DNA of 42,731 bases, taken from contig CALVCQ010000018.1 in the NCBI GenBank assembly GCA_944326115.1, positions 1 to 42,731 on the forward strand, read 5' to 3'. Position numbers and translations under genes: made by a program. The notes below the pieces were generated by a model, which was not told the origin of the DNA, did no database searches, and worked only from the letters and a program-made list of their open reading frames with translations. This DNA comes from Candidatus Gastranaerophilales bacterium (GTDB lineage Bacteria > Cyanobacteriota > Vampirovibrionia > Gastranaerophilales > Gastranaerophilaceae). Positions 5,109-6,412 of this stretch are shown here, in pieces (position 1 is the first letter of the stretch; every line of letters begins with the position of its first letter).

Positions 5109-5136
5109 TTGACAGAGTATATTTATTTAGTAATAT
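5109..5136 (+). promoter_or_regulatory. Promoter of tRNA-Val
   Basis: Perfect TTGACA (5109-5114), 16 bp, then TAATAT (5131-5136). It lies about 170 bp upstream of the mature tRNA and upstream of the partial tRNA copy at 5217-5234, so that copy is expected to be transcribed within the leader. Confidence 0.7.
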
Positions 5137-5173
5137 AGTTATACACTCTTGGAACCAACGGTCATAAGAGTCA

Positions 5174-5325
5174 AAAGCTTCCCAAGGAAGCGCAGTGAAA
5201 ACTAAATATATGGTGCGGGCGTTTAGCTCAGTTGCCCAGTGAGGTTTACCTCACGAATACAGATAAAGCTTCCCAAGGAAGCGCAGTGAAAACAGAATAT
5301 ACGGTGCGGGCGTTTAGCTCAGTTG
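5174..5325 (+). repeat. 91-bp direct repeat carrying the tRNA-Val 5' end
   Basis: Two similar segments, 5174-5234 and 5265-5325. Each starts with a GCTTCC-CA-AGGAAGC hairpin followed by GCGCAGTGAAAAC and ends in the first 18 nt of tRNA-Val (GGGCGTTTAGCTCAGTTG). The first copy leaves the tRNA sequence after position 18 and enters a GTGAGG/CCTCAC hairpin (5239-5254). The second continues into the real tRNA. GGAAGCGC in each unit is antisense to GCGCTTCC of the tRNA. Confidence 0.88.
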
Positions 5326-5383
5326 GTAGAGCGCTTCCCTTACAAGGAAGATGTCGGGAGTTCGAGCCTCTCAACGCCCACCA
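5308..5383 (+). tRNA. tRNA-Val (TAC)
   Basis: Acceptor GGGCGTT pairs with AACGCCC. D-arm GCTC/GAGC, anticodon arm CTTCC-CTTACAA-GGAAG with anticodon TAC, a TTCGAGC T-loop, discriminator A and encoded CCA. The 76-nt gene is followed by a strong terminator (5391-5418). A second copy of its last 16 bases occurs at 5498-5513. Confidence 0.97.
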
Positions 5384-5390
5384 TTATAGA

Positions 5391-5418
5391 AAGACTACAT
5401 GATGTAGTCTTTTTTTTG
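5391..5418 (+). terminator. Terminator of tRNA-Val
   Basis: AAGACTACAT/ATGTAGTCTT stem followed by eight or more T residues, seven bases after the encoded CCA. Confidence 0.9.
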
Positions 5419-5441
5419 TTGAGAGGCATCTCTCTCCCGAC
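5418..5441 (+). repeat. Antisense copy of the tRNA-Val T-arm
   Basis: GTTGAGAGGC at one end and CTCCCGAC at the other are perfect complements of tRNA-Val positions 5366-5375 and 5353-5360, with five to six changed bases between. It is an inverted, slightly degenerate copy of the T-arm and 3' acceptor strand placed just after the terminator. Confidence 0.75.
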
Positions 5442-5456
5442 GGAGTTCTCTTCTCA

Positions 5457-5487
5457 TTTTAAAACTGACATTTAGTCAGTTTTAAAA
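5457..5487. repeat. Dispersed hairpin, GAC-ATTTA-GTC core (copy 3)
   Basis: Perfect 13-bp arms TTTTAAAACTGAC/GTCAGTTTTAAAA around ATTTA. Same core as the copies at 77, 735, 6250 and 6362. Confidence 0.85.
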
Positions 5488-5497
5488 CAAGAGCTCT

Positions 5498-5513
5498 TCT
5501 CAACGCCCACCAT
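5498..5513 (+). repeat. Second copy of the tRNA-Val 3' end
   Basis: TCTCAACGCCCACCAT is identical to 5369-5384, including the CCA, and is again followed by a terminator (5517-5543). The spacing between the copies is 129 bp. Confidence 0.9.
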
Positions 5514-5516
5514 TTC

Positions 5517-5543
5517 TAAAAAGAGCCGAAAAGGCTCTTTTTT
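5517..5543 (+). terminator. Second terminator after tRNA-Val repeats
   Basis: AAAAAGAGCC-GAAAA-GGCTCTTTTTT, a textbook stem-loop with T tract. A near-identical stem (AGAGCC/GGCTCT) ends the tRNA-Met transcript at 6075-6104. Confidence 0.85.
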
Positions 5544-5610: not shown

Positions 5611-5838
5611 CTAAAACTCTTTTGTATTGTCAGTTTTAGAGGTTCGAGCCTCTTTAGATGTTTTTTCTTTGGCTCTAATTGCTTTAGCAAGAGCCTTTCC
5701 GGCATATTCCGGAATTTTTACTCCTTTGATTTTTGCTAAACTCTCAAAAAATTGTTGATAAAGAATTGCGGTTTCTTCTTCTGTATATTCTTTATCGTCA
5801 AATGTGATTATTACATTTACATCTTTTCTGATTTTCAT
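5611..5838 (-). CDS. Hypothetical small protein, 75 aa
   Basis: ATG at 5838 with a strong AGGAGG ribosome site six bases upstream. The first about 55 residues (MKIRKDVNVIITFDD...) are mixed alpha/beta and look like a real folded domain; the family is not recognised. The last about 20 residues are Lys/Thr/Ser-rich. They are encoded partly by a palindrome (5639-5652) that matches a tRNA T-arm, so the 3' end may be a later extension. No partner gene lies next to it, so there is no sign of a toxin-antitoxin pair. Confidence 0.7.
   Translation of the reverse strand: MKIRKDVNVIITFDDKEYTEEETAILYQQFFESLAKIKGVKIPEYAGKALAKAIRAKEKTSKEARTSKTDNTKEF
5639..5652. repeat. tRNA T-arm-like palindrome inside the 75-aa ORF
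   Basis: GAGG-TTCGAG-CCTC. TTCGAGCCTC is identical to part of the tRNA-Val T-arm (5361-5370). It probably belongs to the same family of displaced tRNA fragments. Confidence 0.5.
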
Positions 5839-5877: not shown

Positions 5878-5964
5878 CTGTCATCCCGAATTTATTTCGG
5901 GATCTTATCAACTAGAAGTTTAACTCCAAGTTGGTAAGATGCTGAAACAAGTTCAGCATGACAG
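5878..5964. repeat. Palindromic interspersed element, 87 bp
   Basis: Terminal inverted repeats CTGTCAT (5878-5884) and ATGACAG (5958-5964). Internal hairpins are CCCGAA-TTTAT-TTCGGG (5885-5901) and ATGCTGAA-ACAAG-TTCAGCAT (5939-5959). Elements with these end motifs (TGTCATCCCGAA... and ...TTCAGCATGACA) are familiar as non-coding interspersed palindromes in several bacterial groups. Short ORFs across it are not credible genes. Confidence 0.75.
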
Positions 5965-6074
5965 AATATGTTAAAAAACTCGAACCACTGGAACCACGGA
6001 TGATTAAAGGCTTTAGCCTGTTTTTTAAAATTTTTGGTTTTATTCTTTTTTTTTGTCGCAAACAGCGTAAACAT

Positions 6075-6111: not shown

Positions 6112-6183
<72 letters not shown>

Positions 6184-6249
6184 GTGGCGATTTACTATTT
6201 AATTGTTGCCCGACCTGCTTGCGGTAGCTGCGCTACCTACCTCTCCTTC

Positions 6250-6270
6250 GAAGTGACATTTAGTCACTTC
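6250..6270. repeat. Dispersed hairpin, GAC-ATTTA-GTC core (copy 4)
   Basis: Eight-bp arms GAAGTGAC/GTCACTTC around ATTTA, flanked by CTCTCCTTC and TCTCTCGGCAGAG. Copy inside the first tRNA-Met repeat unit. Confidence 0.85.
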
Positions 6271-6361
6271 TCTCTCGGCAGAGTGCCACAGGCCCGTGGC
6301 GATTTACTATTTAATTGTTGCCCGACCTGCTTGCGGTAGCTGCGCTACCTACCTCTCCTTC

Positions 6362-6382
6362 GAAGTGACATTTAGTCACTTC
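6362..6382. repeat. Dispersed hairpin, GAC-ATTTA-GTC core (copy 5)
   Basis: Same as 6250-6270, displaced by 112 bp in the second tRNA-Met repeat unit. Confidence 0.85.
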
Positions 6383-6412
6383 TCTCTCGGCAGAGTGCCA
6401 CAGGCCCGTGGC

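Follow-up and report, generated by a model that had tools for sequence, protein, structure and literature searches.

The DNA analysed here (the window; 42,731 nt, with all positions given in whole-window coordinates) is contig C18 of G000, a genome of 2.15 Mb in 92 contigs that is 96% complete, and contains an intact tRNA-Val(UAC) gene at 5308-5383, on the plus strand like all the parts of the locus that surround it. A promoter-like site found by the promoter scan and kept in relatives (TTGACA, 16 nt, TAATAT; 5109-5136) is followed by the leader of a first, upstream repeat copy, delimited by direct-repeat and hairpin scans (5174-5216, with the hairpin GCTTCC-CAA-GGAAGC(GC) at 5177-5191), and by a copy of tRNA-Val nucleotides 1-18 (5217-5234). 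A palindromic core then occupies the D-loop position (5235-5264, with the hairpin GTGAGG-TTTA-CCTCAC at 5239-5254), succeeded by a tRNA-derived hairpin composed of sense GCTTCC (tRNA nucleotides 26-31) and antisense GGAAGCGC (nucleotides 31-24; 5268-5284) and by an AT-rich leader (5285-5307) immediately before the tRNA gene. The 5'-end copy is part of a 61-nt direct repeat with 95% identity (5174-5234 and 5265-5325) that extends into the leader, so that the leader is duplicated too. Because the promoter-like site stands upstream of the Val 5' units, the transcribed leader is predicted to include them, as had been proposed in a preliminary description of the locus, which placed a repeat of the first 18 nt of the gene 91 bp upstream. 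The core of the Val 5' unit is conserved across 18 units from 13 species, and its stems are nearly invariant, too much so for a covariation check on these 18 units to be informative.

On the other side, the gene is followed by an intrinsic terminator identified by the terminator scan (5388-5414), an antisense T-arm complementary to tRNA nucleotides 46-68 with the loop altered to ATCTCT (GTTGAGAGGC..CTCCCGAC; 5418-5441), a short sense T-arm piece, GGAGTTC (nucleotides 50-56; 5442-5448), and a second palindromic core (5449-5497), in which a perfect 13-bp stem surrounds TGACATTTAGTCA (5457-5487). The 3' unit ends in a copy of tRNA-Val nucleotides 62-76 with CCA (5498-5512) plus TT (to 5514), beyond which a terminator-like hairpin, AAAGAGCC-GAAAA-GGCTCTTT with a T run, lies at about 5519-5543; the latter is absent from the terminator-scan list and was read by eye from the sequence as a GC hairpin with its T run. 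The antisense T-arm, the long hairpin and the two terminators had all been described correctly, with coordinates accurate to within a base or two, and the 3'-end copy does lie 129 bp downstream, although its length is 15 tRNA nucleotides, or 17 with TT, rather than 16. Just 3' of tRNA-Val, and convergent with it, is a 75-aa ORF without an assigned function (5611-5838, minus strand), whose 3' end contains a 12-nt T-loop copy, GTTCGAGCCTCT (5642-5653). Relatives of this ORF are found just 3' of tRNA-Ile and tRNA-Ser(GGA) in G000 and at tRNA-Val in G014, and it appears to be a tRNA-associated remnant in its own right.

Both remaining tRNA genes of the window, on the minus strand, are flanked likewise. 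tRNA-Phe (172-247) is preceded by two tandem 90-bp 5' units (248-427) with copies of nucleotides 1-13 at 325-337 and 415-427 and an antisense stretch of nucleotides 14-28 in each; it is followed by a partial 3' unit (79-121), comprising a sense copy of nucleotides 44-56 (109-121) and then the TGACATTTAGTCA hairpin. tRNA-Met(CAU) (6112-6183) has two tandem 112-bp 5' units (6184-6412) with 16-nt repeats, GCCACGGGCCTGTGGC, at 6285-6300 and 6397-6412, each unit holding the core ACTCTGCCG..TGACTAAATGTCA..GAGAGGTA. All four copies of the TGACATTTAGTCA hairpin core in the window adjoin a tRNA. A further palindromic module at 721-767, with a ACTCTGCCG..GAGAGG frame and a different hairpin (AAAAGTAACTAAATGTTGCTTTT), is intergenic and has no tRNA beside it, and another long palindromic repeat, CATCCCGAATTTATTTCGGGATCTT..TGCTGAAACAAGTTCAGCATGAC (5878-5966), gave only sub-threshold matches in Rfam, for example to WsnRNA46.

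Anatomy and extent of the repeat units

The units are usually 85-180 bp long, often tandem, and those at the 5' and 3' ends of tRNA genes are mirror images in the order of their parts, with some units devoid of one or more of the typical parts. Reading from the gene outwards, a 3' unit consists of the trailer or terminator, the antisense T-arm, a short sense T-arm piece, the palindromic core and the tRNA 3'-end copy, which starts at about nucleotide 58-64 and runs to the end of the tRNA. A 5' unit, read towards the gene, consists of the tRNA 5'-end copy (nucleotide 1 to about 11-20), the palindromic core, a hairpin formed by D/anticodon-arm sequence in sense and antisense orientation, and the AT-rich leader, after which comes the intact tRNA. 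The break point falls in the D-arm or D-loop for 5' cassettes and in the T-arm or T-loop for 3' cassettes; one intact tRNA is always left, with an end copy of mostly 11-20 nt forming a direct repeat on the far side of the cassette. The orientation of a core motif is also opposite at the two ends: CTCTGCC is present in 11 of 34 5' units and in 0 of 30 3' units, and its complement GGCAGAG in 0 of 34 and 4 of 30, respectively (Fisher p 0.0007, with the orthologues among the units not independent).

The arms are matched to the tRNA that they adjoin. In local alignments they fit it better than they fit other tRNAs, and the median energy of the unit-tRNA duplex was -30.7 with the own tRNA versus -24.1 with other tRNAs for 5' units, and -30.6 versus -24.6 for 3' units (p < 1e-6). 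The antisense T-arms of the 3' units at tRNA-Asn and tRNA-His of G015, at a tRNA-Tyr locus (L328) and at E. coli tyrT carry the same altered loop, (T/C)GAGAA for TTCGAA, which is thus common to both phyla.

The preliminary description called the arrangement unusual for one tRNA gene; unusual it is, but it is not peculiar to tRNA-Val, being found genus-wide at tRNA loci and reaching other genera of the family. Copies of a tRNA gene's own 5' end, own 3' end or either end flank, respectively, 12, 9 and 18 of 38 tRNA genes in G000, 11, 9 and 15 of 32 in G001, 9, 6 and 13 of 33 in G006, and 7, 6 and 10 of 30 in G015, so that about a third to a half of the tRNA loci bear such copies in these four genomes of the genus. 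With each tRNA matched against the flanks of other tRNAs as a control, 0.1 copies per end are expected in G000 (0.08-0.22 over the genomes), and the 12 and 9 of 38 observed there therefore exclude a chance origin. Beyond the genus, 5 of 43 tRNAs were affected in a sample, made up mostly of Thr, Tyr, Lys and Gly, from the family's other genera; G035, from another family, has own-end copies at the 5' end of 0, the 3' end of 2 and either end of 2 of its 32 tRNA genes, and a sample of 22 tRNAs from other families of the phylum had none. UvrB-anchored loci of other phyla yielded four tRNAs with flanks, insufficient as a control.

The palindromic core extends beyond tRNA genes. Of 41 exact copies of the TGACATTTAGTCA hairpin in G000 (0 for the reversed pattern), about 10 are located at tRNA units and roughly 31 in intergenic mosaics away from tRNAs. 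The non-tRNA copies as a rule lack flanking direct repeats, so that the element's target-site duplication does not by itself account for the copied tRNA ends. A second genomic place, on contig C7 of G000 around 2284-2420 (L018), contains tandem 3' units of tRNA-Phe type (nucleotides 39-56, core, nucleotides 63-76). Many contigs end in or near a tRNA gene, namely C3, C6, C7, C8, C10, C18, C19, C30, C33, C40 and C67 of G000, C15 of G002, and C18, C42, C60, C63 and C84 of G015; tandem tRNA-end units may break short-read assemblies, which would fit contig ends at tRNA genes.

Presence, absence and copy number among relatives

Comparison with related genomes or MAGs, where the units are known from sequence alone, a check that the preliminary description had proposed for the tRNA-Val locus, revealed whole units present or absent. 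At tRNA-Val, the 5' site is empty in eight relatives of the genus, whose promoter immediately precedes the tRNA, and others have one to three units. At the same locus, the sister species G006 and G015 differ by exactly one 93-bp upstream unit, absent in G006, with 295 of 300 flanking positions identical; at tRNA-Tyr, one 153-bp unit is likewise absent in G006, with 197 of 200 flanking positions identical. Because the units at tRNA-Val and tRNA-Tyr are conserved across the genus, occurring also in less closely related species, their gain in G015 is no more likely than their deletion from G006 through recombination of the direct repeats.

The sister species also differ downstream of two tRNA genes, where G015 has an extra unit of 139 bp at tRNA-Asn and of 132 bp at tRNA-His, both absent from G006 and undetected in G000. 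On this pattern of occurrence, only the Asn and His units look like recent gains. In this one species, they have a common 84-nt core with 91.7% identity, and the differences between their antisense arms follow the T-stem of each tRNA; the common core is the best sign in these sequences that units may move between tRNA genes. Tandem copy number ranges from 0 to 4 among relatives and differs even between G006 and G015, with 3 versus 1 units at tRNA-Lys(CUU), 2 versus 4 at tRNA-Thr(CGU) and 3 versus 0 at tRNA-Arg(ACG), the zero being read from 144 bp of G015 flank.

Origin of the units

We consider it probable that the units are short, non-coding and non-autonomous palindromic repeat cassettes that colonise Gastranaerophilales tRNA genes from both ends and leave the tRNA intact. 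The features that the sequences show are the own-end copies, the mirror order of parts, the tRNA-matched arms, the clean presence or absence of units, the variable tandem number and the core common to two tRNAs. The 5' units would be transcribed within the pre-tRNA leader and then removed by RNase P, and the 3' units, located behind a terminator, would be mostly silent. Such insertions may be tolerated because the tRNA-end direct repeats would permit precise loss and tandem expansion by recombination, and because an intact tRNA plus a leader or terminator would arrive with, or remain beside, each unit. The tRNA-specific antisense arms could stem from template-switch copying of the target tRNA or from selection against misfolding of the partial copy with the tRNA. 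As to the mover, a search of G000 (96% complete) for the Y1 transposase PF01797 and for a reverse transcriptase, the two families searched, found neither, and a requirement for either enzyme was consequently rejected; PF01797 is present in 15 of 40 relatives, with no clear pattern.

The arms that match the adjoining tRNA and the nearly invariant stems of the Val 5' units would also suit functional leader and trailer elements acting at the RNA level, with the antisense arm paired to the D/anticodon arm in 5' units and to the T-arm in 3' units, and the end copy paired to the acceptor strand opposite it, so that an alternative cloverleaf delays maturation, or with release of a small RNA, as claimed for RtT. 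Minimum-energy folds of unit plus tRNA indeed predict an extended alternative cloverleaf at tRNA-Val, tRNA-Lys and tRNA-Asn, in which the native strand gives way to the end copy and the native arm is masked by the antisense arm, and RtT RNA is described, in work cited in PMC4986893, as being set free from tyrT and as having a link to the stringent response. However, native and shuffled interiors behave alike in folding and the energy model favours long-range multiloop closure, the invariant stems yield no covariation, a terminator precedes the 3' units, and presence and copy number vary between sister species for essential tRNAs. The predicted cloverleaf may be a relic of the origin of the units or a regulatory switch; as the explanation of the units themselves, we regard regulation as unlikely. 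The geometry of restored tRNA and end copy displaced to the far boundary is, in turn, that left by integration into tRNA genes, and together with the terminator or leader carried by each unit, the tandem arrays and the fixed orientation relative to the tRNA end, it would be expected if a site-specific recombinase that targets tRNAs mobilised minimal cassettes in trans, with the end copies as att cores, crossover in the D- or T-loop and tandems as repeated integrations. Yet the search of G000 for Y1 transposase and reverse transcriptase linked no recombinase to the units, most of which, at 85-180 bp, are too short to encode one, and antisense arms tailored to each tRNA are not expected on a moved cassette; this scenario appears quite improbable.

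The tailored arms, the sense-antisense snap-back found at inner unit ends and the varying tandem number could be obtained by replication alone, if hairpin-driven template switching made partial, inverted and tandem copies in which the palindromes are passive inserts, but the core common to the Asn and His units and the fixed orientation of the core motif need a common donor, beyond local slippage, and we judge a purely replicative origin very unlikely. Least credible is the decay of a tandem tRNA gene array, although the tandem spacing near 91 bp does approximate a tRNA plus a short spacer. The preliminary description had named such an array in relatives as the observation that would overturn it; among 25 relatives, none carries intact tRNA-Val genes in tandem at its tRNA-Val(UAC) locus, empty sites run from the promoter straight to a single tRNA, and the units lack most of tRNA nucleotides 32-61 and hold common palindromic cores, foreign to the tRNA, in the D- or T-loop position, and for tRNA-Val this origin was rejected.

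Comparison with known systems

The UvrB of G000 shares 76% identity with the one on a contig labelled Candidatus Gastranaerophilales, which places the genome in this group of gut bacteria, the non-photosynthetic sister group of Cyanobacteria. Like the units, the small dispersed repeats (SDRs) of Nostoc are very small, structured, nested repeats of a cyanobacterial lineage, but they measure 21-27 nt and are not known to be tied to tRNA ends. A search for literature on tRNA-end repeats in this group or on SDRs found nothing useful, which, for a search confined to open-access sources, is weak evidence of absence.

REP/BIME elements are likewise short palindromes interspersed in intergenic mosaics, as are the 41 copies of the TGACATTTAGTCA hairpin in G000 (control, 0). 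In contrast to REP/BIME, which with RAYT needs a cognate Y1 transposase, none of which was found in G000, the units have conserved ends, CTCTC..CGGCAGAGT, and, where they lie at tRNAs, duplicate the tRNA end. Integrative elements of tRNA genes that use tyrosine integrases share with the units the intact, restored tRNA, the end copy as a direct repeat and the break in the T- or D-loop, but the units, mostly 85-180 bp, are too short for an integrase, have tRNA-tailored antisense arms, use both the 5' and the 3' ends of tRNAs and occupy many sites per genome.

The closest likeness is the downstream architecture of E. coli tyrT/tyrV, lysT and argV, so that the unusual character first ascribed to the arrangement does not extend to its 3' half, which has a precedent in the tyrT repeats and the lysT and argV spacers. 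In E. coli K-12, three copies of tyrV nucleotides 67-85 lie downstream of the gene at +160, +338 and +516 (178-bp spacing), in units that run from an antisense T-arm (GGGGAAGGAT) through sense AAGGTTCGA and a multi-hairpin core to the 3'-end copy; related units follow lysT, lysW, lysY, lysZ and argV/argZ, and one core is common to the Tyr, Lys and Arg units. The Rfam RtT model matches the E. coli Tyr and Lys units. RtT RNAs adjoin tRNA genes in Pasteurellaceae as well (PMC4986893), and rtT-like sequences also belong to interspersed BIME-type repeats (PMC2965389). The Gastranaerophilales 3' units have the same structure, located 3' of a tRNA and ending in a tRNA 3'-end copy, with an antisense T-arm and a hairpin core. 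Nevertheless, the covariance model RF00391 matched none of 40 genomes of the order at E <= 1 (the E. coli control was positive), placing the units outside the RtT family by its definition, and it also had no match in the window or in eight unit-bearing loci. The E. coli units are found in polycistronic tRNA operons, whereas those of Gastranaerophilales are at mostly single tRNA genes, about a third to a half of all, and none of 25 E. coli tRNA genes sampled has a 5' mirror unit.

We know of no precedent for the 5' mirror units. What is new appears to be these units and the genome-wide extent; the 3' half is related in its design to the repeats of E. coli tyrT. Those 178-bp repeats, which carry copies of the tRNA end, are an old and unexplained oddity, isolated in enterobacteria; the presence in another phylum of 3' units built in the same way, together with 5' mirror units and an extent of a third to a half of all tRNA genes, makes the origin of the repeats testable by comparing close relatives, for which empty sites, candidate recent gains and common cores are now available. 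If the cassettes do move, they would be among the smallest mobile elements known, and would spare an essential gene in an unusual way. It is conceivable, and we suggest it only tentatively, that non-coding mobile cassettes form a broadly distributed class which recognises the D- and T-arms universal to tRNA genes, copies its own arms from the tRNA at the insertion site and restores that tRNA each time. The tyrT repeats of E. coli, confined to 3' ends, would then be the first of the class to have been seen, and the 5' mirror units of Gastranaerophilales would be a second mode of one process.
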